DNA from: a virus | IMG/VR virus record: IMGVR_UViG_3300042317_001568 | Span: 124,001 to 188,000 of that record | Reading direction: 5' to 3' (one strand) | DNA: 64,000 bases | Shown: piece by piece, positions 24,544 to 42,291 of the stretch | Position numbering within the stretch: position 1 is the first letter of the stretch | How the letters are laid out: each line of letters opens with the position of its first letter | The notes under the pieces: generated by a model | Told to the model about the DNA's origin: nothing | Database searches by the model: none | The model's input: only the letters and a program-made list of their open reading frames with translations | Program-made: the position numbers and the translations under genes

Positions 24544-24848
24544 GCGACACAAACAAGCCTGTGGCATGGGCAGTGACGCCGAACGGCCGCGACGAGGAGA
24601 TTGACTGCGAGTTCATCTACCCTGACGCCGCGACTGCCGGAGACGTTGCGCTGGGTTGCGATGGCGTGGTGTTGCCGCTCTTTCGTCCGAAGCCACCGCC
24701 TGCCACCACGCTCACCGACGAGGAGCGGGAGGCGTTGAATCGCGGAATCGACGCGTTGTACGGCGTGGAGGACGTATCGGATGGTGCGTGCCGCAGAGAC
24801 GATGCCGCAGCGAGGACGCTCCTCGCGTTACTGGAACGACTGAAGTGA
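24540..24848 (+). CDS. LTDEERE-family protein with WAV/PLFR domain (102 aa)
   Basis: GTG start overlapping the previous stop. It begins MSDTNKPVAWAVTPNG, has VVLPLFRPKPP, then TTLTDEEREALNRGIDALYG and ends LLALLERLK. The product at 25950 has the same layout (AWAVVLADG, VPLYRSP, LTDEEREALAEAIG, LLKRLGG). The attC-like site 1 overlaps its stop region, so it is the first cassette-type gene of the array. Its 5' cassette boundary is not visible. Confidence 0.6.
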   Translation: MSDTNKPVAWAVTPNGRDEEIDCEFIYPDAATAGDVALGCDGVVLPLFRPKPPPATTLTDEEREALNRGIDALYGVEDVSDGACRRDDAAARTLLALLERLK

Positions 24849-24894
24849 GAACGATGCGATCTGCGGCGCAGTCCCCTCAATCGCGTGGTTCTGG
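24846..24894 (+). repeat. attC-like site 1
   Basis: R'' TGAGAAC (24846-24852) and R' GTTCTGG (24888-24894). The L stem is GCGAT/ATCGC, with an inner CTG/CAG. An unpaired stretch tcccctca makes it the least regular of the five. Its R'' is the complement of the R' of site 5 (GTTCTCA), so the cassettes before site 1 and after site 5 may derive from the same type. Confidence 0.6.
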
Positions 24895-24906
24895 AGACAC
24901 ACACAC

Positions 24907-25074
24907 ATGACAATCACTCAAATAATCGGTGCTGCACTGATCGCATCCCCCTTTGCGGGCGTTGCGGTGTTGTGCCACATGCACGGCGGCTGGCCCGCCG
25001 TTGCTGTAGTGTTTGGGGCGAGCGGAGCCGTTGTTGCTGTTATCGCACTTGGGTGCCGACTTCTGGTTCCATAA
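24907..25074 (+). CDS. Cassette A gene: small membrane protein (55 aa)
   Basis: ATG 24907 lies 13 nt after site 1. The product is MTITQIIGAALIASPFAGVA followed by HMHGGWPAVAVVFGASGAVVAVIALG, two likely membrane helices with a His/Gly/Trp turn. I recall similar short hydrophobic ORFs in planctomycetes. The stop codon lies within the R'' of site 2, typical of tight cassettes. Confidence 0.55.
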   Translation: MTITQIIGAALIASPFAGVAVLCHMHGGWPAVAVVFGASGAVVAVIALGCRLLVP

Positions 25075-25117
25075 CGCTTGCGATCTGCGGCTCGTCCGCA
25101 GCATCGCGTGGTTCTCT
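25069..25117 (+). repeat. attC-like site 2
   Basis: R'' CCATAAC (25069-25075), stem GCGAT-CTGCGG / CCGCAG-C-ATCGC with an extrahelical C at 25102, loop CTCGT, and R' GTTCTCT (25111-25117). Spacers GCTT and GTG stay unpaired between R and L boxes, the attC pattern. Total 49 nt. Confidence 0.75.
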
Positions 25118-25137
25118 CAGGGAGTCTGGTGCGATCA

Positions 25138-25326
25138 ATGAGATGGTTCATCTGCAAAAACCACAGCGGCGAGAAGTTTGTGAAACGCTGGTACGCGATC
25201 TGGCCGGTGACGGTCAAGGGTGAGACGCGATGGTTGGAGTGGGTCGCCGTGGAATACCGGAGGGTGTTCTACGTCGGCAAGGATCACATTCAGCACGGGG
25301 AGCAGGCGGTTCGGTTTGTGAGTTGA
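25138..25326 (+). CDS. Cassette B gene: basic aromatic protein (62 aa)
   Basis: ATG 25138 begins MRWFICKNHSGEKFVKRWYA and continues with VKGETRWLEWVAVEYRRVFYVGKDH. It is Trp- and Arg-rich and probably a small beta barrel. The frame is open upstream through site 2, but ATG 25138 is the first plausible start. Its TGA stop shares one base with the R'' of site 3. Function unknown. Confidence 0.55.
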   Translation: MRWFICKNHSGEKFVKRWYAIWPVTVKGETRWLEWVAVEYRRVFYVGKDHIQHGEQAVRFVS

Positions 25327-25415
25327 GAGAACACGCAGGATCAGGAGCGGCGAACAATGAGCGATGACAACACGCAGGACGGTGCCGAGCCGTCTCCTGC
25401 ATCCGCTGGTTATCC
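25326..25415 (+). repeat. attC-like site 3, with start codon in its loop
   Basis: R'' AGAGAAC (25326-25332), stem GGAT-CAGGAG / CTCCTG-C-ATCC with an extrahelical C at 25400, and R' GTTATCC (25409-25415). The 46-nt loop contains the ATG of the next gene (25357), and the Shine-Dalgarno AGGAG is in the left stem arm. Total 90 nt. Confidence 0.75.
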
Positions 25416-25590
25416 GCAGCAAGTCGCCTGCGACGCTTGCGGTGGTTCTGGAAAGTTCTGCGTAGGGGAGACATTGGTCAGCCGCGACATGGCGATAGAC
25501 GCAGAGTGTCCGTCGCTTGAGGGCACGCACTACGAGTACGAGTTCGCGCGGTGCCCGGCTTGCGGCGGCGACGGTTGGGTTCTTGGATAA
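25357..25590 (+). CDS. Cassette C gene: CxxCxG zinc-motif protein (77 aa)
   Basis: The start lies in the loop of site 3, so the first 17 residues (MSDDNTQDGAEPSPASA) are attC-encoded and come from the preceding cassette. The rest has two DnaJ-type zinc motifs, ACDACGGSG (about 24-32) and RCPACGGDG (about 66-74), which together could bind one zinc. A role as a protein or nucleic acid adaptor is possible. The stop TAA lies in the R'' of site 4. Confidence 0.6.
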   Translation: MSDDNTQDGAEPSPASAGYPQQVACDACGGSGKFCVGETLVSRDMAIDAECPSLEGTHYEYEFARCPACGGDGWVLG

Positions 25591-25640
25591 CGACAAGGAT
25601 AAGCGGCGGCTTCGCCGTCCGCTTCATCCGCTGGTTCTGC
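25585..25640 (+). repeat. attC-like site 4
   Basis: R'' GGATAAC (25585-25591), stem GGAT-AAGCGG-CGGC / GCCG-T-CCGCTT-C-ATCC with extrahelical T (25618) and C (25625), loop TTC, R' GTTCTGC (25634-25640). This is the most perfect of the hairpins. Total 56 nt. Confidence 0.8.
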
Positions 25641-25657
25641 GTCAAACGAGGTGAGAC

Positions 25658-25903
25658 ATGAGAACGCTTGAAGACGAAGAAGACCCCTTCATTCCGACTC
25701 CGTCAGAGGCTCGTCGCTTCGGGCGGCTGGACAAGATGCCGGAACATAAGCGACTGAAGGCGACAGTGCGGATGTTTTTGGATGCGATCAGGTGTGTGCC
25801 GATGCGGGCGATTGACTGCGATCAACTTCTGGTAAGTGAACTGTTGAACCGTCTGCACGATGAAACAAAACCAAACCGCAAGAAGAAGCGTCGCGCAAAG
25901 TGA
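25658..25903 (+). CDS. Cassette D gene: hypothetical protein (81 aa)
   Basis: ATG 25658 follows GAGGTGAG, 18 nt after site 4. It starts acidic (MRTLEDEEDPFIPTPSEARR), has a helical centre (LKATVRMFLDAIRC), and ends very basic (KPNRKKKRRAK). No family recognised. The stop is 2 nt before the R'' of site 5. Confidence 0.55.
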   Translation: MRTLEDEEDPFIPTPSEARRFGRLDKMPEHKRLKATVRMFLDAIRCVPMRAIDCDQLLVSELLNRLHDETKPNRKKKRRAK

Positions 25904-25904
25904 C

Positions 25905-25993
25905 GCAGAACGCCAGAGATGAATGGCTGCGAACACAGGAGCATGACACATGACAGACGAAAATGAGCAGTCCATTCCATCGCGTGGTTCTCA
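25905..25993 (+). repeat. attC-like site 5, with ribosome site and start codon in its loop
   Basis: R'' GCAGAAC (25905-25911), stem GAT-GAATGG / CCATTC-C-ATC with extrahelical C at 25978, R' GTTCTCA (25987-25993). The 45-nt loop carries CAGGAGC and the ATG at 25950. Total 89 nt. Confidence 0.75.
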
Positions 25994-26261
25994 CGGGGAG
26001 CCGTGCGCGTGGGCTGTGGTGCTTGCTGACGGCCAGCGAATCTACGATGTCTATGGCATCGAAGAAGAGGCCAAGGCGATTGACGAGGCAGTTACTGGGA
26101 ATCACGGCATCGTCCCGCTCTACCGCTCTCCCACGCTCACCGACGAGGAACGCGAGGCGCTTGCTGAAGCGATTGGAGCCTACAACGACAACGACGACGA
26201 CGAGGAATGTGCTAAGATTGCGGCCACGCTTCACGGCTTACTGAAGCGGCTGGGCGGTTAA
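25950..26261 (+). CDS. Cassette E gene: LTDEERE-family protein with attC-encoded N-terminus (103 aa)
   Basis: ATG 25950 is inside the loop of site 5, with AGGAG 9 nt upstream. Residues 1-12 (MTDENEQSIPSR) are attC sequence. Then follow CAWAVVLADGQRIYDVYGIEE, HGIVPLYRSP, LTDEEREALAEAIGAY and LLKRLGG, the same order as in the product at 24540. No attC follows, so this cassette is cut short or is the last. Confidence 0.6.
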   Translation: MTDENEQSIPSRGSHGEPCAWAVVLADGQRIYDVYGIEEEAKAIDEAVTGNHGIVPLYRSPTLTDEEREALAEAIGAYNDNDDDEECAKIAATLHGLLKRLGG

Positions 26262-27849: not shown

Positions 27850-29031
27850 ATGCGGCCGTTGTTTGTTTTTTGTGCTGATTTGCATTTGGAAGATGGCGCT
27901 TGGACTTCTCGGATAAACATCTACGGCGACGCGTATTACAGTTTTAAGCAGATCGTAGACCACTGCATTGAGCACAAACTGCCGCTCATACTTGGCGGCG
28001 ACGTGCTGGAAAAGAAAAGCAATGCGGCGCGTCCAATTGCAAAACTGTGCGCCGAGCTGACCCGCATGCAGGACGCCAAACTCCCGGTGTACTACATTCA
28101 GGGTAATCACGAATATGATCGCTATGCGCCGTGGCTAAGCGTGCACCCGTGGCCGACGCACATGCATAACCTCACAGTGGTGTTCGACAACGTCAGCGTG
28201 CACGGCATCGATTGGTTACCAAAGGGAGAAATTCAAAAAGCGCTCAAAGATGTTCCGGCGACTACAGCCGTACTTGTCACGCATCAGGTGTGGCAAGATT
28301 TTATGGGCACCGTTGGGCGAACCGAATGCGATTTGTCGGAGGTGCACTACGCACACACAGTCCTCGCCGGTGACTTTCACGTTACAAAAGTAGCTGAAGG
28401 TACAAACGCGCAAGGAAAACCGATTCGCATGTTGTCTCCGGGTTCAACTGCTATGCAAGACATCGGCGAAGAACCCGAGAAGTTTTTCTTCGTTATTTGT
28501 GTTGACGAAGCGGGCAAAATTGTTTTCGCCCCGCATCGGCTGCAGACACGCAAATTTTTGAGTTATGTTGTTAAAACAGCGGAAGAGCTGGACGAACTGT
28601 GCGCCGGCAAACTGGCAAACGCTGTTGACCGGGTACTACAGGCGGCCCGGCTTTACGTTCCGCCAGAACTAGCAAAACCACTGGTTCGGGTGAAATTCAA
28701 CAAAAACCTTCCGGACGCTTATCTTCGAATCACGACGGCCGGCGCTGACATAGCGCATTTGTTTTGCGACGCCATTGCGGATCGTGACGATGAGAACAAA
28801 GACCGCCCCGCCCGCCCGCGAGATGAAACAAAAAACGACTTACTGCACGCAATCGCCGAGCTGCTTGGCGACGACACAGATGAATATCGCTTCGCGCAAG
28901 AAATACTTGCGGCTACAAATCCAAAGCGGCTCGTTGAGTCGCACCTACACGAATATGTGAAAGGGGCAGGCAATGCAGCTATTACGGCTGGAAGTTCAGA
29001 ACTGGGTGCACCACCGGAAACGGGTTTGTGA
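27850..29031 (+). CDS. sbcD: SbcD/Mre11/gp47-like DNA repair nuclease subunit
   Basis: ATG 27850 (GGAGGG upstream). The 393-aa protein has the calcineurin-type phosphoesterase motifs in order: DLHLEDG (residues 9-15), GGDVLEKKS (about 48), GNHEYD (about 84), then a His in VTHQVW and GDFH at about 178. These bind two Mn ions. With its SbcC partner it makes an ATP-dependent nuclease that opens DNA ends and hairpins, as T4 gp47 does. A C-terminal helical part (about 280-393) would contact the ATPase coiled coil. It overlaps sbcC by 59 nt. Confidence 0.85.
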   Translation: MRPLFVFCADLHLEDGAWTSRINIYGDAYYSFKQIVDHCIEHKLPLILGGDVLEKKSNAARPIAKLCAELTRMQDAKLPVYYIQGNHEYDRYAPWLSVHPWPTHMHNLTVVFDNVSVHGIDWLPKGEIQKALKDVPATTAVLVTHQVWQDFMGTVGRTECDLSEVHYAHTVLAGDFHVTKVAEGTNAQGKPIRMLSPGSTAMQDIGEEPEKFFFVICVDEAGKIVFAPHRLQTRKFLSYVVKTAEELDELCAGKLANAVDRVLQAARLYVPPELAKPLVRVKFNKNLPDAYLRITTAGADIAHLFCDAIADRDDENKDRPARPRDETKNDLLHAIAELLGDDTDEYRFAQEILAATNPKRLVESHLHEYVKGAGNAAITAGSSELGAPPETGL

Positions 29032-31126
29032 GTTTACCCGCGGCCTTGTCGCCATCCTTGGCGAAAATGGTTCCGGCAAAAGCAGCTTGTTCGGCGCGGT
29101 CAGCTGGCTGCTTACTGGAGAAAACCCCAACTACGGCACTAAAGCCGAAAACATCTCTCAATACGCCGAAAACGACGAGCCGGCTTTTGCGCGACTTGAG
29201 TTTGAGCACAACGGCCATATCGCCGTAGTAACTCGCTGGCTTCGGCCCGAAAAAGAAACAGCCACGATGCTCGTCGACGACGTCGAGGTGGCCAGAGGCG
29301 ACAAAAGCGTCACCGCGGCTATTGAGCAGTTGCTTGGAATTGACGCCAAGTTTATTTCGCGGTTTATCATTGTTGGTCAGCTAGACATTTTTTCGTTTAT
29401 TGACCAACGGCAGAGCGAAGTCGACACTTTTTTTCAGCACCTCTTCGGCACAGCAAAAGCTCAAAAATGCGCCGCTGCCGTAGGCGACGTTCTTCTGACA
29501 GCAAAGCCACCCGAGATATTGCGCACGTCGGCGGAGCTGCAGTTGGTAAGAGACGCGTTGGCTACAAAAATAAAAGACGCTCAGGACCGCGTCGACGCTA
29601 TTCCGACAATTGACGCATTTTTGAAAATGCAGCAGGTAGATCAGGCTATTATCGAGCAATGGCGTTTACGTGAAAAACTTGGCGCAGAGCTTTCAGCACT
29701 TGAGCAGCGGGAAAAAGAGTACGCAAAAGAGCTGCAAATAGATGACGACCAGTTGACTCAGTACGCTGCTGATCTCGCCGCGCTTACCGAGTCCGCTGAC
29801 ACTCAAGACGCAGACTACACATCGGCGAAGGTTGCTTTAGCGCATTGGGGCAACTACAAGACTATTGCTAGCCAACGCCGACAGATTGAAACACAGCGCG
29901 CGGGAATCGCTACTGCTCGAAACGAGAATATACGCCCGGAACCAGTGACGCAGTCGGTGATTGACATGGCTGCGCAAAAGTATGCGCATTTGCATCAAGA
30001 GATCACGCGGCTGCGAAATTTTGTTAGCGCTTTTTCAAAGGCCGGCACAGCCGAATGTCCGACGTGTCATACGCCGACCGCGAACTTACAGGCGCAACTC
30101 GATGAGTCGAAAAAGTTGTTGCCGATTCTGCAAGCACAGGCCGTAGACGCGCAAGAAGCCTTGACAGAGCTGCGAAAAGCCGCAGACGGTTATGCAAAGT
30201 GGGAAAAGACAGATCACGAATTATCGGTACGGGAACAGGCGCTTCAAACATCACTAGCGCAACTTACAGCCGTCTCCCCCCCGACAGATGACGAAACGAT
30301 TCTGCAGCAAACTGTAATAGATTACGAGGAGTTGCAGGCGGCAAAAATCGGGCTTAATGAGCTGCTTCAAAAGCTTCGTGAGCACCGCGCCCAGCTTGCC
30401 GGAGTCGCTACCACAATCGCGGAACGGAAAAGCGAAATAGATCAATCTGTCGCGGTTATTTCTACGACTCAGGCTGACGCACATTTGGCTTCTTTACGGT
30501 TGGAAAAACTCAAAGAGCGGTGTGCTTTGCGGCAGTCACTAGAGCGCGAATTTGAAGAACTTCGTTTTTCTGATCGACAATTAGCCGAGCAGCAGGCAAA
30601 TAGTCAAAAACTGGAGGAGGAGGCAGCCCGGCTTAAAAACTGGACAGAGCAAGCGACGCGCGTTCGGGAGGCTTTCAAGAGTGCCCCGCGGCTTGTGGCT
30701 ACAAGAAATCTGCAGCGGCTGGAGACAGCCATTAACGAGCTGCTGCAAATTTTTAGCGTGAACTTTTTAGTCCGCGTCGCCACCGACGGTACCCCCACGT
30801 TTGTGGCCGAATTTTATGACGGGCGAAAACAAGTTGCGCAGCGGTTGTCCGTCGGGCAGAAAACAGTTTTGGCGCTTGCGTTTCGCGTAGCGTGTAATGC
30901 AATGTTTGCAGAAGAAATTGGTTTGCTTGCGCTCGACGAGCCTACCGCTGCTTTGGATTCTGTGCGTATTCAAGCGCTCGCTCCGGTTCTGGAAAAGCTA
31001 CGAGAACTATCGACGGCAAAAGGGTTACAATGTCTATTGGTGACGCACGCGTCTTCTTTGTCGCATTTGTTTGAGTCGACGATAGAACTCGAAGCACCGG
31101 AAACCCGCCATGTCAAAAAATTATGA
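28973..31126 (+). CDS. sbcC: SbcC/Rad50/gp46-like ATPase subunit
   Basis: The 717-aa SMC-type protein has Walker A GENGSGKSS (about 29-37), long coiled coils (about 190-590), a zinc hook CPTC at about 361-364, an ABC signature LSVGQKTVLALAFR (about 623) and Walker B LLALDEPTAALD (about 650). This is the full layout of Rad50 relatives at phage size. It pairs with the SbcD-like protein to process DNA ends for recombination-dependent replication. Confidence 0.88.
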   Translation: MQLLRLEVQNWVHHRKRVCEFTRGLVAILGENGSGKSSLFGAVSWLLTGENPNYGTKAENISQYAENDEPAFARLEFEHNGHIAVVTRWLRPEKETATMLVDDVEVARGDKSVTAAIEQLLGIDAKFISRFIIVGQLDIFSFIDQRQSEVDTFFQHLFGTAKAQKCAAAVGDVLLTAKPPEILRTSAELQLVRDALATKIKDAQDRVDAIPTIDAFLKMQQVDQAIIEQWRLREKLGAELSALEQREKEYAKELQIDDDQLTQYAADLAALTESADTQDADYTSAKVALAHWGNYKTIASQRRQIETQRAGIATARNENIRPEPVTQSVIDMAAQKYAHLHQEITRLRNFVSAFSKAGTAECPTCHTPTANLQAQLDESKKLLPILQAQAVDAQEALTELRKAADGYAKWEKTDHELSVREQALQTSLAQLTAVSPPTDDETILQQTVIDYEELQAAKIGLNELLQKLREHRAQLAGVATTIAERKSEIDQSVAVISTTQADAHLASLRLEKLKERCALRQSLEREFEELRFSDRQLAEQQANSQKLEEEAARLKNWTEQATRVREAFKSAPRLVATRNLQRLETAINELLQIFSVNFLVRVATDGTPTFVAEFYDGRKQVAQRLSVGQKTVLALAFRVACNAMFAEEIGLLALDEPTAALDSVRIQALAPVLEKLRELSTAKGLQCLLVTHASSLSHLFESTIELEAPETRHVKKL

Positions 31127-32054
31127 CGAGACTGTAATGCGGTTGCACACAGACCAAAACGGTATTGTGTGGTTTGCACGCGGCCTAGACGCGCCGACGT
31201 CTTCCGAAAAAAATACAGACACGTTTATGCTGACGCCGGTTTGTTCTGGCAAAAGCGCGGTATTTCGGTTAATTGGAGCTGCGCAAAACGCTGAACTAAT
31301 TTGCGGGCTTTTTTTACGGTTGCGTCAAAAAGAAGTCTTATCTGTTGAGTTGGGCGGACCGAATATTTTTGACGACAATTTGCGACAACTTGACGCGCAG
31401 CAGGTTGTTATGCGCATGAATGGTGTTCGTTTACCGGCATCCCGTGGCGGCTGGCACTCAGCAACCTACGCCGACTACAACATATACGGCTTGCTGGCGC
31501 GTTTAAACCGAAACGGTTTTATGCCGGATACGCCGGCTAAGATTCATTTTGGTTCGCACCCAATTGCAAAAATTCTTCAGTTTATTCCAACACTGTCAGA
31601 GTCAGACGCGGCGGTCTTTGCTGCTACCGTCATCGACCCGCGTTGGTTTTCTGATCGGCGCACAACTGATTGCACTAAAAACGTGTTTAACTTTTTGGGG
31701 CTTACGCCGGCGTCGCAGCGCCGCGTGAGCGATCCGACTGCAATTTTAACGCGTGTTCGTGACGTACGTTGCGCTAGAGTTTTGGCCGCGTGGAAAAGCA
31801 AAGAAATTTCTCCGGACAGCGTAGACCTGAAAAACCCGGCAAATTTTTTGTACCGTATTTGGCACGCTGCCGGCGGTGGGCCAAAGGGGGACTTGCGAGC
31901 TTCGCAGGCTTTTGTACAGTATGCGGTGTCGAACTGGCTGTCAGCGCTGGAGCAGCGCGCCGGAGTCAGGGACGGGCTATTTGCGCCTAACCTGTATTTC
32001 AAAACACCAGCCGAGCAAAAAGCTTACACGCAATACGCCGCGGCCGTTTCGTGA
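31110..32054 (+). CDS. Hypothetical protein (314 aa)
   Basis: ATG 31110 overlaps the sbcC end by 17 nt. A mixed alpha/beta protein with no motif I can place. Contains FMLTPVCSGKSAVFRLIG, which resembles a P-loop superficially but lacks the GxxxxGK spacing. Position between SbcC and helicase suggests a DNA-metabolism accessory. Confidence 0.6.
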   Translation: MSKNYDETVMRLHTDQNGIVWFARGLDAPTSSEKNTDTFMLTPVCSGKSAVFRLIGAAQNAELICGLFLRLRQKEVLSVELGGPNIFDDNLRQLDAQQVVMRMNGVRLPASRGGWHSATYADYNIYGLLARLNRNGFMPDTPAKIHFGSHPIAKILQFIPTLSESDAAVFAATVIDPRWFSDRRTTDCTKNVFNFLGLTPASQRRVSDPTAILTRVRDVRCARVLAAWKSKEISPDSVDLKNPANFLYRIWHAAGGGPKGDLRASQAFVQYAVSNWLSALEQRAGVRDGLFAPNLYFKTPAEQKAYTQYAAAVS

Positions 32055-32057
32055 CCT

Positions 32058-32552
32058 ATGCAGGAAGTAGCAATCACTCTGCGGTTTAACCGTGTCTGTC
32101 TAGGCGCTGCCAGACGACGACGCAACGGGCAAACTATATTTTGCTTTGACCGTGATCCGGACGGCAGAGTGATGTTTATGCCCGCGGCGTGGCTGTCGTG
32201 TATGCGGTACGCTGCCAAGCTCTACAACCGATTCCATACAGACGTAAAAAACATCGATTGGTGTCCGCTTGTAATGGGTACGCCAAAACCAGACTGGCGG
32301 CGAACAATCATTTCAAACGCCAACAAAGAAGACACCCGGGCGCATTTTGCCGTGCATGAAGCCTTCAAGCCCGGCGACAAAATCACGTTGAGCGCTGTAT
32401 TGCCGCAAGAAATTGGCGTGGAAGATTTTACCTACATGTTGACAATTGTCGGCAAATACCGCGGCTTCTCGCCGTTTAACAACAATCAAGAAAAATATGG
32501 CACATTCGAAGTCATCTCAGTCGACCCAATCGCCGGACCCGGATCGGAATAG
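32058..32552 (+). CDS. Hypothetical protein (164 aa)
   Basis: Begins MQEVAITLRFNRVCLGAARRRRNGQTIFCFDRD, with beta strands and a basic turn. The pattern VMFMPAAWLSCMRYAA and a C-terminal beta region follow. I recall similar proteins as uncharacterised in large phages. It overlaps the helicase gene. Confidence 0.55.
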   Translation: MQEVAITLRFNRVCLGAARRRRNGQTIFCFDRDPDGRVMFMPAAWLSCMRYAAKLYNRFHTDVKNIDWCPLVMGTPKPDWRRTIISNANKEDTRAHFAVHEAFKPGDKITLSAVLPQEIGVEDFTYMLTIVGKYRGFSPFNNNQEKYGTFEVISVDPIAGPGSE

Positions 32553-34089
32553 GTTTGCGGGTCTGCGTGTCGTTATCCATAAAACGGGTAACGTGTTGCG
32601 GCTGATGGGCGAGAACAATACGCCCCTGCCGCCTGAACTAATTAAAGCTGTTACGCGCGGCCTGCAGTATTCGCACGTCGAGCAGCTTCACGGAAAGTCG
32701 CACCGTAACCCAATTACGGGGCAGCGGCTGTTTTTCCAGACACGGGAATACAAACTATACCGCGTCGAGAACGGCCAGATTACTTTGCTTTTCGGCTACA
32801 CTGCCCGAGCGCTTAAACGCCTCCGGCGGCTCGGTTGCGAAATTGCGTTTTTTGACCTAAGCCCGGCACGTGCGCGACCAAACTGTTATGTCCCGCAATG
32901 GGAGGGTCTTGCCGGCCGCATCGAGTTCCGCGCCCGGCAGGACGAGTGTTTAAATACGATTGCCCGCGTACCTTGTGGCATCATCAAAGCAGTTACGGGC
33001 TTCGGCAAGACGACACTGATCGGAGCTGCCGCGCTGCTGTTTCCTGAGGCGCGTATTGATGTCGTCACAAAATCTGTCGACGTCGCTGAGCGTATTGTGC
33101 GCAGTCTGCGGCGGTTCGTGCCAAAGGTCGGACTCATTGGTGACGGCTCCCGCCGCCGTGAGCGCGTCACAGTAATCACCGCCGGCAGTTTGGCGCACGC
33201 CGACGGCGACGCGGATTTTTTGTTTGCAGACGAAGTGCATCAGTTGGCCACAATCAACTTCTCGACAACGATAGCGGATCGGTACCGCAACTCACGCAAC
33301 TTCGGTTTGAGCGCCACGCCGTATGCTCGGATGGACAACGCGCACGAAGTTTTGGAGCCGTTGTTCGGCCCGATGATTTTTGAGTTGACGTATCAGCAAG
33401 CGGTCGAGCTCGGGCTCGTCGTGCCTGTTCGCGTCAAATGGCTGCCTATCAGGCTCAGTCACAATCCTGCAGAACGGTTTCAGAATCGTATAGCGAGAAA
33501 ACGGTACGGCATCTGGACAAACCATGAGCGGAACCGTATGATCGCCGAAGCCGTTCGCGAGTATCCAGAAGAGTCTCAAATTCTGATACTCGTTGAGACC
33601 ATTGAGCACGCTGTTTATTTGGGGGCGCAATTACCGGAGTTTACGCTGGTGTATTCCAGCATGGATAACTATGACTGCTCTAAGTACAGAAAAATGGGTT
33701 TGCTGCCAAAAGACTACAGGCCCATCTCCGACATTCAAAAGCACAATTTCCGCGACCAGTTTGAACGTGGTGAATTACGGCGCGTAATAGCCACGGATGT
33801 GTGGTCTACGGGCGTTGACTTTGAGCAGTTGAATGTACTTGTGCGTGCCGATGATCGTGACAGCGACATTGTGGACGTTCAAGGTCCCGGTCGTGTCAGC
33901 CGTATTTACACGGCTCCTGACGGCACATCAAAAGAGGTCGGCGAAGTAATAGACTGCATGGACGTATTCGATCCCACTTTTTACAAGAAAAGCGCTGGTC
34001 GTCGTGATAGCTACAAACTACTTGGATGGGAGCAGAATTGGAATGATGCTCAAAGAAACTGGCGCAATATCCCCAACCATGAGCCGTGA
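32497..34089 (+). CDS. SF2 DEAD/DEAH-type helicase
   Basis: ATG 32497 is the most plausible start (530 aa); the frame is open to a TTG at 32446. An N-terminal domain of about 140 residues precedes the helicase core. Motif I is AVTGFGKTTL, motif II LFADEVHQL (a DEVH box), motif III GLSATPYAR, and domain 2 has ATDVWSTGVDFEQLNVLV and QGPGRVSR (motifs V and VI). This is a UvsW- or RecG/RAD25-like superfamily 2 translocase. In T4, UvsW acts in branch migration and origin-to-recombination switching. Confidence 0.8.
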   Translation: MAHSKSSQSTQSPDPDRNRFAGLRVVIHKTGNVLRLMGENNTPLPPELIKAVTRGLQYSHVEQLHGKSHRNPITGQRLFFQTREYKLYRVENGQITLLFGYTARALKRLRRLGCEIAFFDLSPARARPNCYVPQWEGLAGRIEFRARQDECLNTIARVPCGIIKAVTGFGKTTLIGAAALLFPEARIDVVTKSVDVAERIVRSLRRFVPKVGLIGDGSRRRERVTVITAGSLAHADGDADFLFADEVHQLATINFSTTIADRYRNSRNFGLSATPYARMDNAHEVLEPLFGPMIFELTYQQAVELGLVVPVRVKWLPIRLSHNPAERFQNRIARKRYGIWTNHERNRMIAEAVREYPEESQILILVETIEHAVYLGAQLPEFTLVYSSMDNYDCSKYRKMGLLPKDYRPISDIQKHNFRDQFERGELRRVIATDVWSTGVDFEQLNVLVRADDRDSDIVDVQGPGRVSRIYTAPDGTSKEVGEVIDCMDVFDPTFYKKSAGRRDSYKLLGWEQNWNDAQRNWRNIPNHEP

Positions 34090-34804
34090 TGCTGAAATTC
34101 TAAAACCAGACTGGCACACCCGGCTTACTGACAAACAACTGATGGCGTACATTCGCTATCAGTTTATTCGTTTAAAAGAGCACGTTATTGATCTTGATTC
34201 CCCGGCACACACGCACCGGCGCCCGAACTGGGACGGCGGCGAAAATAGCGCGGGTGTCACCTACAAGGCTTTGTGGCCAAAAGCCATGAACGCCATTAAG
34301 GAACGAGAAGCGCATCCCGGCGTTTGGGTGACGGCGCGGTTCTCGCCAATTGCGCTATCGTTTGATTTGTCGAACCGCATGTCAGCCCCGCCGATTAAAC
34401 CGTCGTCGCTAGCCGACCACAATGCCGCGACAATTTACGCTGAATACTGCAAGCGGTTTACCGGGTCATTTACGTTTAATTTGAACATTGCGTTGAAGGT
34501 TGTGGCGTCGCGTTTGCGTGAGCTAGCGGCGCACCCAATGCCGGAAAACGCCCGGGTATTTTATGTTCTTTGTGACGAGGCGCATCTTTCAACGCCGGCA
34601 TTTTTCCGGCACGGCATGGCCTCCGCCGCCGAGTGCGATAAAGCGGCGCTCAAGTACCTGTGGCGCGCCGCAGTCGACTACGAGGCGCAGCAGCCGCTTT
34701 ACGACGCCGCCTGCGCCGCGCAATCTGTTTCAGATTTTATTACTCCCGAATTGCAGCAGTATGTGATTAATATCCGCAAACATTGGATGACTTACAATGA
34801 CTAA
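34079..34804 (+). CDS. Hypothetical protein (241 aa)
   Basis: ATG 34079 gives an 11-nt overlap with the helicase gene; upstream ATGs in frame exist at 34040-34043. The sequence has a helical N-terminus (DKQLMAYIRYQFIRLKEHV) and a motif RVFYVLCDEAHLSTPAFF that looks like Walker B but has no Walker A, so ATPase activity is unlikely. It could be a helicase loader or accessory by position. Overlaps the DnaB-like gene by 8 nt. Confidence 0.55.
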   Translation: MSRDAEILKPDWHTRLTDKQLMAYIRYQFIRLKEHVIDLDSPAHTHRRPNWDGGENSAGVTYKALWPKAMNAIKEREAHPGVWVTARFSPIALSFDLSNRMSAPPIKPSSLADHNAATIYAEYCKRFTGSFTFNLNIALKVVASRLRELAAHPMPENARVFYVLCDEAHLSTPAFFRHGMASAAECDKAALKYLWRAAVDYEAQQPLYDAACAAQSVSDFITPELQQYVINIRKHWMTYND

Positions 34805-36488
34805 GAATCAGTTAGAAGATGGCCCACTAAAGGCCCGTGACATCGACGTCGAGTACCCAATTACCGTTACTGACGTGCGGTTGTTGGTGAAAACGTTGCT
34901 GCGGTATCAGCAGATGCTGCAAAGCGCTATCTCTGCCGGATTGAATTTCAATCAGTTTAATGGCCCGGACGAAGCGCCTTACGGTTACGTTATGCACGCC
35001 GCCGGCGCGCTTGTTAAGGAACATAACGCCGTAACAGAGGAAATGCTGAAAGCCGAACTTCAGGCTTGGTATTCTGGCGGGGCTATGGCGATAGCGCCGC
35101 AGCAGTTTGAAGAGTTGCTTGGCACTGAAGGGAATCCCGGATTTCTGAGCGAGGCTTTTGCCGCACCCGAGACAGACAACAAGCGCGTTACCGCGGAGAA
35201 AGATTATGCGCAAAAGCTGCTGTACAAGTTTCTAAAAGCGCGCATGCTGACAGCAGACTTGTCGGAAATGCTTCAGGCGTCGTCGGCTGACACGTCGCCG
35301 CAACGGTTTGAAGAGCTGCTCGGTAAGTCGTATCGCAAAGCGCAGTCAATCCGATTCATCGGCACGGAACTTGACGATGAAAATGATTTCATGCCAGAGT
35401 TCGGCTCAGAAACGAATTACGCGCCCGTAGTCGCCGAGCCAACCGGTATACCGTGGATTGACCAGTACATCGGCGGATTTTGCGCCGGAGACGTAATCGG
35501 TCTTCTTGGCCCTACTGGCGGCGGCAAGAGCAACATGATGATCTCGGCTGCGGTAAGAATGGCGCAATATTATGCGGCAAACAACCTGAACAAGTTGTCT
35601 GTCTACGTGTGCTATGAAGACGGCAATTACCGCATGAAACCGTTGTTCTGGTCCGCCGCGACGCGCATTAGCCGCGAGACCTTTGCAAACGCTGATTTCA
35701 ACTGGGCAAATATGTCTACAAGCGAGATGCCCAACGACGCTGACCGCCGTCTCCCCGAAAATCAAAATGGTGAGTTTATTCTCGGCGAGCGGGAGCGATA
35801 TATTGCCGCGCAGTCTTGGATGAAGAAGCACTTCAAGTTTTTGGACTTTTCTTACAACGTTGCTACTGGCGGCCGCGGCCTTGGCGGGCTGCAGGAAATC
35901 GTATCAGTGGTTGAGCAGATTTGTGAGAAGCGTGGAATGTCGTTGGGTTTTATCGCCATTGATTATGCGGGCATACTTATTGAGCGTTACCTTGCAGCGA
36001 CGGGGCGTTTAAAATCTACAGGCCCTGACGGCGTATATCTTCCGCTAAAAACGTTTGGTGACGAAGTGCGGTATAGTCTGTCTGCTCCGTACGGGGCTGT
36101 AGCTATGGTCGCGCATCAGATTGCTGGCGCCGCCGCAAACGCAAAGCCCTTTTATCGGTATCTTACGCACTGGGACGTACAGCACTGCAAGTCGTTCGCT
36201 GAGAATATGCAGGCTTGCATTTGCATAAATTCTGCGGACCCTGACACGCAAGCGCGGCTTATTAATTACTCAAAAATTCGATACGGCGCGCCCGGGATGC
36301 AGCACGGCATTATCAAGATCAAGAGCGAGTACTGCAGTATTGACCTTGTGTCTGACTTTTATCAGGTCGATGAGTTTTCGAAGAAGATCGTTCCTAAAAA
36401 TGAGCTTTCTTCAGCCGCCGGTCGACCAGCACGAACCCGGCCGTCTTCTGGAATGGTTCCCGGAGATAACTTTAGCAACATGTTGTAG
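34797..36488 (+). CDS. DnaB-like replicative helicase
   Basis: The 563-aa protein has an N-terminal helical region (1-200) and a RecA-fold core. Walker A is GPTGGGKS (238-245). A DnaB-type H1a/H2 region follows with VYVCYEDG and Walker B GFIAIDYAGIL at about 385. C-terminal blocks GAVAMVAHQIAG and INYSKIRYGAPG fit the H3-H4 region of SF4 helicases. It likely unwinds the fork with the primase encoded next. The N-domain is longer than usual and not clearly DnaB-like. Confidence 0.78.
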   Translation: MTKNQLEDGPLKARDIDVEYPITVTDVRLLVKTLLRYQQMLQSAISAGLNFNQFNGPDEAPYGYVMHAAGALVKEHNAVTEEMLKAELQAWYSGGAMAIAPQQFEELLGTEGNPGFLSEAFAAPETDNKRVTAEKDYAQKLLYKFLKARMLTADLSEMLQASSADTSPQRFEELLGKSYRKAQSIRFIGTELDDENDFMPEFGSETNYAPVVAEPTGIPWIDQYIGGFCAGDVIGLLGPTGGGKSNMMISAAVRMAQYYAANNLNKLSVYVCYEDGNYRMKPLFWSAATRISRETFANADFNWANMSTSEMPNDADRRLPENQNGEFILGERERYIAAQSWMKKHFKFLDFSYNVATGGRGLGGLQEIVSVVEQICEKRGMSLGFIAIDYAGILIERYLAATGRLKSTGPDGVYLPLKTFGDEVRYSLSAPYGAVAMVAHQIAGAAANAKPFYRYLTHWDVQHCKSFAENMQACICINSADPDTQARLINYSKIRYGAPGMQHGIIKIKSEYCSIDLVSDFYQVDEFSKKIVPKNELSSAAGRPARTRPSSGMVPGDNFSNML

Positions 36489-37573
36489 TGAGAGGAATGG
36501 GCGCAACAGTGGACGCGGGAATAAAACCCCTGAACCCAACACTTTACGCGCTGCTGGAACACAAATTCAGCGGGAGCGTAAAGATCGCAAATCCCGGCGT
36601 GGCGGCAGCCATCGAGCGTTATCGTGATCCAGTGCACCCCGGCAGGTACGTAACCCGTAGTTCACACTGGGGCGAGTACTACTGCGTATGCTGCCCGTTT
36701 TGCAACGACGTTGGACACAAGCTCTGGATCAATCATCGCTACGGTGCAGACGTCGACCCCGAAACGGGACGACGCTCGGACACGTTTTTGGCCGTGTGCT
36801 ATAAAAACAATTGTATCCGTACGCGGTATCAGCAGTTTGAAGATTTAGTTTTTGGTCCCGGCAAAAAACTACCAGTGCGTATGGGTATCGCCACCGGCAT
36901 CAAACCCGAAAACGCTGAATCTATTTCTCCGCCGGGCGAGATTGTTTCCTTGGTTGATCTTCCGGACTATCATCCGGCAAACGAGTATCTACGGTCCCGA
37001 AATTTTGATCCCGCTGTTCTCGCCGAAAAATTCGGCGTCGGCGTTTGCGTAAACCCCGTGCCGGCTTACGGCATCATGCGCGGCCGAATCTACATTCCTG
37101 TGTATTCCAGCGGGCAGCTTGTTGGTTGGCAGGGACGGATCGTGACACCCCCCGACGGCAAACCGAAGTATTACACGCAAGGCAGCAAAAGCCGCGCGCT
37201 TTACAACTATGCGCAAGCGGCTCGTCAGCCGTACGTCGTTGTTGTCGAAGGCGTGCCGAGCGTGTGGCGCATTGGCGACCCTGCCGTCGCCATTTTTGGA
37301 AAAACGTTGTCGCAATGGCAGCAAAACACGATCGGCACGGCGTGGACTGGAAAACCTGTTTTTGTCGTGATAGATTTCGGCGAAGACGAGGGGCGTGCGC
37401 TTGAGCAGATTGCCATGCAGCTGTACCGGTATCCCATCCAGTTGGTTCCAGTGCAGATGCCAGACGCCCGCGACCCGGCTGATTATTCTTTGCCGGATTT
37501 TTACGAGTTGCTCCACGAGGCGGCAGCAGACATAGGCGTAGATTCATCAGTATTAAACACGAGAAACCAATGA
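36488..37573 (+). CDS. DnaG-type primase
   Basis: The start is uncertain (GTG 36488 or ATG 36497; GAGAGGA lies between). Residues 60-100 carry a zinc-binding region, YCVCCPFCNDVGHKLWI and later a Cys in AVCYKNNCIRT. A Toprim-like domain follows, with VVVVEGVPSVWRIGD (catalytic Glu) and VFVVIDFGEDEGRA (acidic pair). GRIYIPVYSSGQLVGWQGR is typical of phage primases just before Toprim. It would prime lagging-strand synthesis with the helicase. Confidence 0.75.
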   Translation: MRGMGATVDAGIKPLNPTLYALLEHKFSGSVKIANPGVAAAIERYRDPVHPGRYVTRSSHWGEYYCVCCPFCNDVGHKLWINHRYGADVDPETGRRSDTFLAVCYKNNCIRTRYQQFEDLVFGPGKKLPVRMGIATGIKPENAESISPPGEIVSLVDLPDYHPANEYLRSRNFDPAVLAEKFGVGVCVNPVPAYGIMRGRIYIPVYSSGQLVGWQGRIVTPPDGKPKYYTQGSKSRALYNYAQAARQPYVVVVEGVPSVWRIGDPAVAIFGKTLSQWQQNTIGTAWTGKPVFVVIDFGEDEGRALEQIAMQLYRYPIQLVPVQMPDARDPADYSLPDFYELLHEAAADIGVDSSVLNTRNQ

Positions 37574-40500
37574 GTGTAGTGTCTTTAAATCAGCGTCATA
37601 CACGCTCTCTTTATGACCCTAAAAGCGCTAAGCTAACAGCAGCGCTTTTTCCGTTTTTGCCGCTCGACGCTCCGGGCATGCCGTCCGCAGGCCCGAACTT
37701 TATCGCGCATGCCAATATCTTGGGCGACACGATCGATCCGGCAAAAACGAAAAAACAAATCCCGATCGGCGAGAAGCTGACAAACTTGTACAGAGACGCG
37801 CTGTACAACCCGCAGTTCTTTCTGCCTGTCGCTCACAAGAATGAGTTGACGGCGGTGCCGTTTCTTCCGGGACACATTCTCGGTCAAGTCGCGGACGAAA
37901 AGTTTAAATCGCTTCACGCGACTGATGACGAGTTTGGCCCTCGCCCCGCTCGCGTCATGATCGTAGGAAAGTCCCCCGGGCAGACAGAGATTCAATACCG
38001 CAACTCTTTTGGCGGTTCTGGCATGCGGCCTATGCAGCACGCTATGCAGGAGTGCGGCTTTTTGCCGGACGAGTATTTGTCGTGGTACGTAACCTTCGCC
38101 TGCAAATTTATGTCGCCGGACGCAGAGCTGACGGCTCTCCCGGCCGCGTGGCTGAAGGACTGCGCGCTGCTGCTAGAGCAAGAAATACGGCTTGTACAGC
38201 CAGACTATATTCTCTGCCTTGGCGCGGAGGCTACAAAGGCCGTGCTGCAGACAACCGGGAGCGTCACGAATCTTCTTGGCCGCGCTATAACGCGTAAGTC
38301 AAAAGATGCGGAAGGAAACGACCGCGAGATTCTTGTTGTCCCTGCCGTCAACCCGGGTTTTGTAGCGCGTAAGCCTGACGCTTACGAAGACTTTGTCGGC
38401 CAGATTCAGCGGTTTTACGACTTGGTTCACAACAAGCAGTCTGTTGAAGAAACAGTCGACCACGCCGAGATTTACACGGAAGAGACTTTACGTGAAATGG
38501 TCGATGAGATGATTGCCGACACGACGCTGAACGCGAACATCATCGCCATCGACTGCGAGTGGCACGGCGAGTTCCCCACGGAAGATGGCGCTTACTTGCG
38601 CACCATTCAGGTCTCTAACAAGGACAAGTGGGCGCGCACGATTGTCTTGCGGCATCAAGGCGGTGGAATTGCTTTTCAGCCAAATCTCGACGTAATTCGC
38701 GAACAGTTGAATCGGCTACTGAAGAGCACGCCTGATCGGCATGTCCGAGTTGGCGGGCATTTCTTTCGTGCTGACTTGCCGTGGCTTGTCCACTTCGGCG
38801 TCGATGTACGCGAGGAGTACGGTCCGGTTGATAACTCAGACGATAGAACTCGCGGGGGTTGGGACACGAGTCTGATGTATCACGCTGTAAACGAGACGGC
38901 GCGGTATGGGTTAGACGCGTGCTCCATGCGGTTTACTTCTGCGCCTATTTACTGGGAAGAATTGGACAACTGGAACAAGAAGCGAAAAAAGAATGGCGAC
39001 GCAGACGGCGGTTACGGTAATTGCCCGGGCCACATTTTGCATCCGTACGCCTCGTACGACGCCGACGTCACGCGACGGATTATGTTGCGTTTTTACGGCA
39101 CCAACGGCCGAGACGGCTTGTTAGCCAGCGACGCAAACGGCGTTGACTGCTGGTTACCGTACTGGACCGCGCATATCGCGTCGCTGGCGTTTCTGGAAAT
39201 GGAAATGACCGGTCTCGTAATTGACCGCGACCGCGCTGACGAGCTGACAACCGTGTTTATGAATACGCAAGACCAGCTTTTGGACGAAATTAGGGCGGAA
39301 CTGAACTGGCCTGAATTCAATCCAAAATCGCAGCCGCAACTATCTGTCGCGTTGTTCGGCGCCGACTTTGGCGCGCGGTATGTCAACCCACCCGAGCCGC
39401 CGGCAGACGCTTCGTTATTGAGCCTGACGCCAGTCAAGACAACCGGCAAACGCCCGACCTTGTGGGCGGAACTAGGCATGCGCGGCCTTGACGCAGCTAC
39501 TGCGGTGCCCAGCACCGATAAAGAAAGTCTGGGTATTCTTGGGCATCAAAACGCCACAGCTGCCAAGATTCGCGATTACAAGTTTGTGAGTCAGGTCCTG
39601 CAGTCTGTTTTACGTAAACCAGCAAAAGACGACACCGGAGAATACGAAGCCGATGAAAACGGAAATTTCGTCTATGAGAAGGGGCTGGTGGGCTGCGTTC
39701 ATTCCGACGGCCGTGTTCGCACACACTTTTTTCAGACGAAAGAAACCGGCCGCGCGTCAAGCTCTCGACCGCCTTTGCAAAACCTCAGCTCCCGCCGCGA
39801 GGACGACTATCGACGTATCCTCGGCGCATCTTATCACCACCCAGTCCGGTCAGTCCTGCGGGTGCCAGAAGGGTACGTCGGGCTTGAAACGGACCTCACT
39901 GGTGCGGAACTGGCGGTCCTCGCGTGGTTGTCGCAAGATAAAAACATGATCGAACATGTTCGGCGTAATCTTCTCCCAGAGAGTCACACCGACCATTACG
40001 ACATCCACTCGCGACAGGCGTGCAAGGCGTTTAATCTCCACAACATCGAACCTACAAAAACTGGCCTCGTAAAGGCCGGGAAAAAGGGTTTGCGTGTTGC
40101 CGCTAAAAACGTGAATTTCGGTATCCCATATGGCCGCGGGGCAGAAGCTATCGCGCGGCAATGCAAAGAAGAGGGTGTCGAGGTTACGCCAGCCGAGTGT
40201 CAGGCGATGATCGACGCGTACTTTGACTCGTATCCCGGCACAGCTGATTTTTTAGCGGAGTGCCGCGCACGGTCTCAAAACCCCGGTTGGCTCGTTGGCC
40301 CATACGGCCGCTTGCGGCGCTTTTCATCTGCCGAGTTCAATCGTTCTTCTAACAGCAAGGGTACAAAAGCATACGCCGTTGTTGGAGAACAGGAACGGCA
40401 AGCGCAGAACTTCCCGATTCAAGGCGGCGTGGCTGATGCGGTGTCAATGGCATTGGCGAACTTTTACGAGTATCGCACAAACCACTCTGACATTGATTAC

Positions 40501-40764
40501 AAGATCGCGCTCCAGATTCACGACGCGATTGTTTTGTTGGTTCCCATTGAACACTCTGAACGCGTGTATAAGGAGGTTATTCCTAAATGCATGATTGATG
40601 ATGTGCCGTTTTGGCCTCGCCGATTAGATGGCAGTTCCATCCTTGTTCCCGAGCCGTATCGGTTCGGCTGCTCCCGAGACGTCTTTGTGCACTGGGGCGA
40701 GAACATAACCCCCGAGCAAATCAGGGCTTACGGCATGGACTGGCTTTTTGATTGCAAGGACTAG
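37570..40764 (+). CDS. Family A DNA polymerase with N-terminal uracil-DNA-glycosylase-like domain
   Basis: The 1064-aa protein has three parts. Residues 128-285 resemble family 4/5 UDGs (MIVGKSPGQTE, ILCLGAEATKAVL, VVPAVNPGFVAR), but the usual HP of motif 2 is NP. Residues 320-520 are a DEDDy 3'-5' exonuclease: IDCEW (D328, E330), GHFFRADLPWL, and YASYDAD. Residues 700-1064 are the palm-fingers-thumb: motif A ETDLTGAELAVLAWLS (D775), motif B KNVNFGIPYG (about 845), motif C QIHDAIVLL (H984 D985), where the usual HDE is HDA. UDG-polymerase fusions are known from SPO1-type phages. Overlaps the primase by 4 nt. Confidence 0.88.
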   Translation: MSVVSLNQRHTRSLYDPKSAKLTAALFPFLPLDAPGMPSAGPNFIAHANILGDTIDPAKTKKQIPIGEKLTNLYRDALYNPQFFLPVAHKNELTAVPFLPGHILGQVADEKFKSLHATDDEFGPRPARVMIVGKSPGQTEIQYRNSFGGSGMRPMQHAMQECGFLPDEYLSWYVTFACKFMSPDAELTALPAAWLKDCALLLEQEIRLVQPDYILCLGAEATKAVLQTTGSVTNLLGRAITRKSKDAEGNDREILVVPAVNPGFVARKPDAYEDFVGQIQRFYDLVHNKQSVEETVDHAEIYTEETLREMVDEMIADTTLNANIIAIDCEWHGEFPTEDGAYLRTIQVSNKDKWARTIVLRHQGGGIAFQPNLDVIREQLNRLLKSTPDRHVRVGGHFFRADLPWLVHFGVDVREEYGPVDNSDDRTRGGWDTSLMYHAVNETARYGLDACSMRFTSAPIYWEELDNWNKKRKKNGDADGGYGNCPGHILHPYASYDADVTRRIMLRFYGTNGRDGLLASDANGVDCWLPYWTAHIASLAFLEMEMTGLVIDRDRADELTTVFMNTQDQLLDEIRAELNWPEFNPKSQPQLSVALFGADFGARYVNPPEPPADASLLSLTPVKTTGKRPTLWAELGMRGLDAATAVPSTDKESLGILGHQNATAAKIRDYKFVSQVLQSVLRKPAKDDTGEYEADENGNFVYEKGLVGCVHSDGRVRTHFFQTKETGRASSSRPPLQNLSSRREDDYRRILGASYHHPVRSVLRVPEGYVGLETDLTGAELAVLAWLSQDKNMIEHVRRNLLPESHTDHYDIHSRQACKAFNLHNIEPTKTGLVKAGKKGLRVAAKNVNFGIPYGRGAEAIARQCKEEGVEVTPAECQAMIDAYFDSYPGTADFLAECRARSQNPGWLVGPYGRLRRFSSAEFNRSSNSKGTKAYAVVGEQERQAQNFPIQGGVADAVSMALANFYEYRTNHSDIDYKIALQIHDAIVLLVPIEHSERVYKEVIPKCMIDDVPFWPRRLDGSSILVPEPYRFGCSRDVFVHWGENITPEQIRAYGMDWLFDCKD

Positions 40765-40789
40765 ACATCTTCGGCGGCCGAGGTATAAT
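40762..40789 (+). promoter_or_regulatory. Sigma70-like promoter
   Basis: TAGACA (40762-40767, 5 of 6 to TTGACA), a 16-bp spacer, and a perfect TATAAT (40784-40789). It is in the 101-bp gap between the polymerase and the putative DNA-binding protein gene and is the best promoter I see in the window. It implies a strong transcript starting near 40796. Confidence 0.75.
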
Positions 40790-40805
40790 GCGGCTACCGT
40801 TGAAA

Positions 40806-40830
40806 GCAGGTACAACGCCCTGCACTTTTT
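40806..40830 (+). promoter_or_regulatory. Possible leader hairpin with T tract
   Basis: GCAGG-tacaacgc-CCTGC followed by ACTTTTT lies about 10-15 nt after the predicted transcription start. It is a weak terminator shape and could be an attenuator in the 5' leader, or may simply stabilise the transcript. Confidence 0.35.
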
Positions 40831-40865
40831 GATTCCTAACTACTTAACAAAGAAAGAGCATAACA

Positions 40866-42242
40866 ATGCCTCGTTATCCCGGTCAGAATCTTGCTTCCGT
40901 TAACCCTGAATACCGAAAAGAACACAAGATTGATGACGGCTCAGGTAAGACAAGCCGCTACACTTTCGGTAAAAACGTAGTCATCGCCGCCGGTGACAAA
41001 ATTCTTTCTGGCGGTTTCTGCATGCGCCTGCTCCCACTTGTGGATCAGGCCGGCTCTGCGCGGGCAAACAAGCCCGAATTTATCTCGTTCCGCGAAGGTC
41101 GCGATCAGGCGGCCATCGGCGACTGGTGCCGGATTATGACGGTCGCGTACTGGGTTGGTAACCCGGGCGTGTGCTTCATTATTCATGACGGCAACCCGGA
41201 ATTGGACATCAAGCAGAGTCCGTATTTTCTGCTGCGTGACGCCGCCCGCGCTAACACAGAAACTCCGGGCATTGGCCGGCTGTTTGCTGAGTTGACGCAA
41301 AATCGCGTGATGAACTCGCATATCGGTTCGCTCTCGCAACCCGAGAAGATGCTGTTCGTTTCCGCGACGGCCGTGTATGTAGACGAGCGCGGGCAGGTAA
41401 CTCTGGGCGCTTTCAGCGAAGACCCAAAGCGCAATGCGCGGGTCATCGGTCTGAAGTACAGCGCTACTCAGAGTCTGTATTCTGTGCTCAACGCCCGCGA
41501 CCCGCAGACGGGTGAGTTTTACGTAAACGATATGTTGTCGTTTGGTCCGTCGCAACTTCTGTCGATTGTGCCTGAATCGTTTCAGGCAGGTCCGCAAAAG
41601 CAGATCGGCGTCGGCGAACACGGCCCGGATGTGTTTCACTGCCCGGCGTATGCCCGCAACAACGACCCGAACGCCAAGTTTGTGATCGGTCGTCCGGGAA
41701 AGCCGAGCTCGTATACGCACTACTGCATCGTGCACGACACGTTCCGCGGTCAGCCGATTTCGCTCGAAGCGTACGAAGATCGCATTACCAGCGAGAATCG
41801 TACGATGGACGACATGCTGTACGTGCCGAGCTACGAAGAGCAGGCCGAGCTGCTGTCGCGAGCGTTCCCGCAGGAAGTGCTTGAATTTGCGTGGCAGGAT
41901 TATCCTGAGTATCGCAAGCATCTCCGCGGACGGACGACGACTGTTGAGACATCGCCGCAGCGCACTCCGACTCCGGCAGCTGATTCTAGCTGGATGGATC
42001 GCGCTGCTCCGACCGCAGTTGCCAAGGCTGCTCCGAAGCCAGCGGCTAATTACGATGATGTCCCGTTCGACGGCGAGATTTCCGAAGAGGATACCGCCAG
42101 CGTCGTGGACATGTTCTCCGAAGCGCCGCTCCCAGCCGGCGCGTCCGTTCCGCCTCCTCCGCCGCCCCGCGCTACTCCGGCCCGCTCTACGCCGGCTGAA
42201 ATCATGAGTCGCGTGCGTAAGTCGTCGCGTAAGGACGGCTGA
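40866..42242 (+). CDS. Putative abundant DNA-binding (SSB-like) protein (458 aa)
   Basis: The first 330 residues form a compact domain with KTSRYTFGKNVVIAAGDKILSGGFCMRLLPL at the start and FHCPAYARNNDPNAKFVIGRPGKPSSYTHYCIVHDTF later. The C-terminal 110 residues are a flexible Pro/Ala/Thr-rich region with YDDVPFDGEISEED, which looks like the acidic protein-recruiting tail of SSBs, and a short basic end. Strong own promoter and position between polymerase and recombinase fit a single-strand DNA-binding protein made in quantity. No OB-fold signature can be proven by eye. Confidence 0.5.
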   Translation: MPRYPGQNLASVNPEYRKEHKIDDGSGKTSRYTFGKNVVIAAGDKILSGGFCMRLLPLVDQAGSARANKPEFISFREGRDQAAIGDWCRIMTVAYWVGNPGVCFIIHDGNPELDIKQSPYFLLRDAARANTETPGIGRLFAELTQNRVMNSHIGSLSQPEKMLFVSATAVYVDERGQVTLGAFSEDPKRNARVIGLKYSATQSLYSVLNARDPQTGEFYVNDMLSFGPSQLLSIVPESFQAGPQKQIGVGEHGPDVFHCPAYARNNDPNAKFVIGRPGKPSSYTHYCIVHDTFRGQPISLEAYEDRITSENRTMDDMLYVPSYEEQAELLSRAFPQEVLEFAWQDYPEYRKHLRGRTTTVETSPQRTPTPAADSSWMDRAAPTAVAKAAPKPAANYDDVPFDGEISEEDTASVVDMFSEAPLPAGASVPPPPPPRATPARSTPAEIMSRVRKSSRKDG

Positions 42243-42264
42243 GTTCAACGGTAAAGTCCGCATT

Positions 42265-42291
42265 TGGCGTGACACATATGAATGTGCACGC
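42265..42291 (+). promoter_or_regulatory. Intergenic hairpin
   Basis: GGCGTG-a-CACAT-atga-ATGTG-CACGCC makes an 11-bp stem with one bulged A. No T tract directly follows. It lies in the 121-bp gap between two genes and could reduce read-through or protect the 3' end of the abundant upstream transcript. Confidence 0.45.

Follow-up and report, generated by a model that had tools for sequence, protein, structure and literature searches.

A phage genome was found to carry a row of five hairpins which, judged by sequence and predicted fold, are attC sites. We consider that the row is an integrase-less integron cassette array (CALIN) belonging to a phage-enriched 'inverted' family, with a probability of roughly 0.78. 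The stretch analyzed, hereafter the window, is 64 kb long and corresponds to bases 124001-188000 of the 205,010-base virus record IMGVR_UViG_3300042317_001568. The phage nature of the record is apparent from a replication block located 3′ of the array (SbcC-like, helicase, DnaB-like helicase, primase, DNA polymerase and UvsX-like genes, 28973..43740, plus strand) and from a tail-fibre gene further downstream. Directly 5′ of the array, three tandem paralogues of the 'LTDEERE' family are located on the plus strand (24005-24283, 24280-24543 and 24540-24848). With two or more attC sites and no integron integrase, the array has the make-up of a CALIN; it lacks the intI gene that a complete integron contains inside the element. 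An earlier note on this DNA, made from the sequence alone, had recognized integron-type attC sites in a phage genome, with attC-like extrahelical bases and movement of whole cassettes, and this reading is upheld here. The note proposed a search of the record for intI; neither intI nor any other protein of the Phage_integrase family (PF00589) was matched across the 205 kb. The remainder of the record outside the array contained zero further sites.

The five hairpins and their heptamers lie at the positions given in the earlier note. The tail boxes (AAC, at the hairpin 5′ ends) are located at 24846, 25069, 25326, 25585 and 25905, and the GTT boxes (at the hairpin 3′ ends) at 24888, 25111, 25409, 25634 and 25987; all sites are on the plus strand. 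Site 2 (25069..25117; CCATAA/C ... GTTCTCT) is of the short 49-nt class and was identified by R1 (69.6 bits), by folding and by a structure-only scan. Site 4 (25585..25640, 56 nt), identified by folding and by the same scan, has both unpaired bases (T-N6-C). Sites 3 (25326..25415) and 5 (25905..25993) are of the long class. The former contains AGGAG at 25343-25347 and an ATG at 25357 whose frame continues into the downstream ORF, and the latter contains AGGAG at 25937-25941 and the ATG of ORF5 at 25950. Site 1 (24846..24894; TGAGAA/C, hairpin, GTTCTGG) received 25.7 bits with R1 and has a degenerate L′ arm. Its 3′ arm (24868-24894) reads CCCCTCAATCGC vs CCGCAGCATCGC in intact relatives, with loss of stem pairing, which suggests local decay of a single site in the window phage. 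The structure-only scan of the window detected sites 2-5 and missed site 1, and found 0 sites in three shuffled versions of the window.

Architecture was analyzed in 231 unique sites of the same family. Watson-Crick pairing is seen in 94-100% of sites at all six inner positions of the stem and at the first three outer ones, and compensatory pair types at variable positions far exceed those expected from shuffled pairing. Folded as single-stranded DNA, the sites form an R stem, an unpaired central spacer, an L stem and a variable terminal loop, with bulged bases. The earlier note had pointed to an unpaired C shared at one place; an extrahelical C is present in 224 of the 231 sites, on the same arm, together with a second extrahelical base, a T (220 of 231), located six paired bases inward, so that the arm carries T-N6-C. 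Folded attC bottom strands have two extrahelical bases on the same side, typically T-N6-G, and T-N6-G and T-N6-C sites are the ones most efficiently excised by IntI1 (Larouche and Roy 2011, PMC3053210).

The extra bases also set the polarity of the sites. By definition they are located on the R″-L″ arm (Bouvier 2009, PMC2727003), and here 281 of 291 sites, and 121 of 123 sites of a second set, have an extra base on the 3′ arm when read along the ORF-sense strand. The ORF-sense strand is therefore the predicted attC bottom strand, on which integron integrases act. This polarity predicts a cut in the 5′ box, at AA/C, and would place the hairpin in one unit with the gene downstream of it. Phage TJE1 served as a yardstick: the structure-only scan found two sites in it, with extra bases on the ORF-sense 5′ arm. 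In six related arrays the scan found 5-12 sites each, which, like window sites 2-5, have a polarity opposite to that of TJE1. Hence the canonical arrangement, with the ORF on the attC top strand and the attC site 3′ of it, is not the one observed.

The expected boundary was found in homologous cassettes located in differing contexts. In 23 pairs of homologous cassette bodies (the pairs are non-independent) the upstream hairpin was the more conserved one in 19, the downstream hairpin in 3, and one pair was a tie. In the aligned junctions, near identity ends precisely at AAC, and the sequences beyond it are unrelated. Since AA|C on the ORF-sense strand is G|TT on the opposite strand, the breakpoint is at G/TT of the attC top strand. 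The cassettes bounded at G/TT in the earlier note are ruled out by these junctions, which place the boundary in the 5′ (tail) box instead, at AA/C. A few cassette pairs have differing upstream hairpins as well, and hairpin exchange is therefore possible by other routes too. Junction comparison thus shows that the cassette, as predicted, consists of a hairpin, an ORF and a tail box, with the attC site at the 5′ end of the gene, inverted with respect to canonical cassettes. So defined, the window contains cassettes K1 (24852..25074; hairpin 1, ORF 24907-25074 and CCATAA), K2 (25075..25331; hairpin 2, ORF 25138-25326 and AGAGAA), K3 (25332..25590; hairpin 3, ORF 25357-25590 with zinc-ribbon-like CxxCxG, and GGATAA) and K4 (25591..25910; hairpin 4, ORF 25658-25903 and GCAGAA), all on the plus strand. 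They are followed on the same strand by hairpin 5 and ORF5 (25911..26261; ORF5 25950-26261), a member of the 'LTDEERE' family without a 3′ tail box. K1 has a full-length, 95% identical copy in phage contig L041, where a different cassette follows it and the right junction is CCATAA|C. A full-length, 97% identical copy of K3 is located in L101 between neighbours that differ on both sides.

It had been claimed that the first heptamer of each cassette is complementary to the heptamer at its own end, more often than chance would allow, and both parts of the claim hold. Cassette heads match their own tails at 6/7 positions in K1 and at 7/7 in K2, K3 and K4 (complementarity extends to 10/10 in K4), while heptamers within single hairpins match at only 4-5/7. 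Among related cassettes, 133 of 164 are perfect at the four variable positions, against a mean of 30 and a maximum of 47 in 5000 shuffles; when the head was compared with the tail of its own hairpin, 29 matches were obtained. In the second contig set cassette ends are perfect in 42 of 56 cases (shuffle mean 10, maximum 20). A fifth match links the two ends of the window array: the last head, GTTCTCA at 25987, is an exact complement of the first tail, TGAGAAC at 24846, so that the five heads and five tails pair as a ring. We infer that this is what insertion of K1-K4 into one pre-existing site would produce. Hairpin 5 with ORF5, together with the tail at 24846, is likely the pre-existing acceptor site, and K1-K4 appear to have entered a single attC that lay between tandem 'LTDEERE' paralogues.

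A single predicted attC family of this kind spans diverse phages and about 90 viral contigs. Sites of the family are arrayed in ~90 other viral contigs and number more than 400; contigs with at least two sites amount to ~90 over both contig sets, with a maximum of 14 sites per contig. These contigs are assemblies, mostly incomplete, and the covariance-model E-values are rough. Array-bearing contigs contain terminase, helicase and primase genes and mutually unrelated portal families. The 28-nt pattern of the short class was found in 73 IMG/VR stretches vs a single one of 84,980 prokaryote species genomes, a genome scan that used the short-class pattern only and that long-class sites and poorly assembled arrays would escape. 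The long-class pattern was found in 97 IMG/VR stretches. No relatives at the DNA level were found in isolated phages and plasmids. The only genome matched by the short-site pattern is that of a cyanobacterium, and the planctomycete origin suggested earlier is unsupported.

In the long class the hairpin may have a second function. In 202 of 244 unique long-class sites the GGT codon of the recombination box is preceded by an in-frame ATG, with an open frame up to the box, at discrete distances of 37, 40, 46, 52 or 55 nt and a few others. A Shine-Dalgarno-like sequence was found in 106 of 112 sites of an earlier subset. The leaders encoded by the hairpins have on average 16 residues and are acidic, and variation in them tends to be greatest at third codon positions. 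In the window, K3 and ORF5 are the genes that start within their own hairpins. Genes behind short-class sites mostly start 3′ of the GTT box. We infer that the loop of a long-class hairpin provides a Shine-Dalgarno sequence, a start codon and a leader.

The one matching bacterial genome is the draft assembly of Cyanobium sp. FGCU52. Its locus L068 (1903-7718) is a chromosomal integron with three phage-type cassettes and two identical tandem mazEF cassettes, the attC sites of the mazEF pair being of the ordinary kind. The IntI matches TIGR02249 with 457 bits vs a cut-off of 265 and adjoins recR-lipA. The structure-only scan assigned one polarity to mazEF and phage-type attC sites, with the phage-type ORFs being antisense, and the mazEF attC bottom strand folds with the same T-N6-X bulges. 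One phage-type cassette is 92% identical to a viral cassette over 353 nt. These data provide strong circumstantial evidence, drawn from sequence comparison, that a real integron took up phage-type cassettes. The FGCU52 genome encodes a second full IntI, on a different contig.

The observations could be explained differently if the hairpins were REP-like or regulatory elements shuffled by homologous recombination and only superficially similar to attC. The hairpins are indeed repeated and partly conserved in sequence, and the long ones resemble translation-initiation structures. However, the complementary cassette ends are at least 150 nt apart, a distance for which a local hairpin gives no explanation, the sequence beyond the exact AAC junctions is unrelated, the T-N6-C bulges fit IntI substrates, and the sites also occur inside an array with IntI. 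We therefore regard this explanation as highly unlikely. Even less credible is that the array contigs are mostly fragments of bacterial integrons mislabelled as viral. Many of them are short and full of unknown genes, but terminase, portal, helicase and primase genes occur in array contigs, replication and tail genes occur in the window, and IntI is absent from 40 array-bearing contigs.

That the window array is a host-derived relic, an integron fragment captured by chance that has lost its mobility, is improbable, though less so. The record lacks an integrase, site 1 is decayed, and the same array is present in three contigs (the window, L009 and L010); from the decayed site and the identity of the three arrays it follows that the window copy may be partly fossil. 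Capture by chance is, however, difficult to reconcile with the distribution of the family (the 73 and 97 IMG/VR stretches found with the two patterns vs the single genome found with the first), with the recurrence of K1 and K3 next to different neighbours in other phages, and with the wide occurrence of 'LTDEERE' genes among viral contigs. Relatives of ORF5 were found at 59 IMG/VR loci, ~40 of which hold the same hairpin sites, usually in rows.

The enzyme acting on the phage-enriched inverted sites is most likely a host IntI supplied in trans. This is favoured by the absence of intI from the phage records (no IntI, TIGR02249, was found in 40 array-bearing viral records) and by the Cyanobium integron, which has an IntI and correctly oriented attC sites. 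Against it, more host integrons would be expected, yet only 1 of the 84,980 genomes matched the short-site pattern. A tentative possibility, itself rather unlikely, is that the cassettes are moved by an Xer-like tyrosine recombinase of the phages, which would then have an integron-like platform of their own that does without IntI. Among 50 array-bearing viral records, 31 gave matches to tyrosine recombinases (PF00589), 28 of these over the cut-off; the proteins are Xer-like where examined. The Xer/XerA-like recombinases of array phages belong to the tyrosine recombinase superfamily, have the catalytic R-K-H-R-H-Y residues and may have a role with the cassettes. A recombinase family of ~293 aa (L142-L166) is the most shared gene, present in 15 of 22 array contigs; it has 339 relatives in IMG/VR and only 4 weak matches in INPHARED, and 11-13 of 42 contigs picked only by this recombinase carry sites. 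However, a control helicase from the same phages is associated with arrays about as frequently, so the link may only reflect kinship of the phages. In addition, no such recombinase is present in the window record, and where present it is usually located away from the arrays. The family is matched weakly by XerA, XerC and XerD models and hardly by IntI, far below the IntI cut-off, and the proteins could be ordinary lysogeny integrases. In L340 and L342 the ~293-aa recombinase gene is followed by an attC site within ~1 kb. A private phage pool of inverted cassettes, whose attC sites both recombine and start translation, served by a phage recombinase distinct from IntI and with host integrons as occasional recipients, seems doubtful to a similar degree.

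With host IntI as the most likely enzyme, the following course can be envisaged for the inverted cassettes. Infection would generate abundant single-stranded phage DNA, in which the ORF-sense strand would fold into attC hairpins. Acting at AA/C, a tyrosine recombinase would then swap cassettes from phage to phage, and host integrons would at times take part in the exchange. The fixed polarity of attC would keep the genes co-directional and read by phage transcription, without an integron promoter, and a long-class leader whose frame continues across the recombination box to the gene would let each cassette bring its own translation start.

Phage cassette arrays had been thought very rare in the earlier note. 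The array is indeed in a phage genome, but it is not unprecedented, as an earlier study described phages with integrons and 17 phage attC clusters lacking an integrase (Qi et al. 2023, PMC9892861). Five of six phage attC sites tested in that work recombine with attI1, and TJE1 attC sites were shown to recombine. The CALINs of virulent phages TJE1, PH101 and P12002L (PMC9892861) are likewise attC clusters without intI and with small co-directional cassettes. In TJE1, however, polarity is normal and attC follows the gene on its 3′ side, whereas in the window family polarity is inverted, with attC located 5′ and often encoding the start codon; also unlike the published phage CALINs (PMC9892861), the window site family spans many phage types. 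With canonical chromosomal integrons, represented by the mazEF cassettes of FGCU52 L068, the family shares R boxes, an unpaired spacer, L stems and bottom-strand T-N6-X, as well as complementarity of cassette ends and the cut at G/TT of the attC top strand. It differs from them in having ORFs on the attC bottom strand, no intI and, in the long class, a coding terminal loop. In the literature searched, which was incomplete, neither inverted phage cassettes nor start-codon-bearing attC sites were found to be described, and a phage-enriched, fully inverted cassette class with a translation start in attC appears to be undescribed.

Hitherto, integrons have been regarded as gene-capture platforms of bacteria and phage attC clusters as scattered curiosities. 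Exact exchange of cassettes between phages, together with their presence in a bacterial integron, makes flow from phages to integrons directly testable, and suggests that phages are one source of the numerous integron cassettes of unknown function. A recombination site, a ribosome-binding site and a start codon combined in one hairpin would constitute an apparently undescribed route to cassettes self-sufficient in translation.

The products of the cassettes gave no Pfam or PHROG match above curated thresholds. The small K3 protein (25357-25590) has a DnaJ zinc-binding-like CxxCxG...CxxCxG arrangement, matching Pfam DnaJ_CXXCXGXG with E=1e-5, below the cut-off. In L195 (330-720) a tRNA-end-like stretch ('GGGGATGTAGTTCAGTGGTAGAAC...GGCATCCCC'), for which ARAGORN makes no call, adjoins two sites. 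The 'LTDEERE' family is the commonest cassette gene and is also present as tandem phage paralogues. Its small proteins have a variable N-terminal part, often with '..PVAWAV...VVPLYR', and a conserved C-terminal module, 'LTDEEREA...LLERL'.
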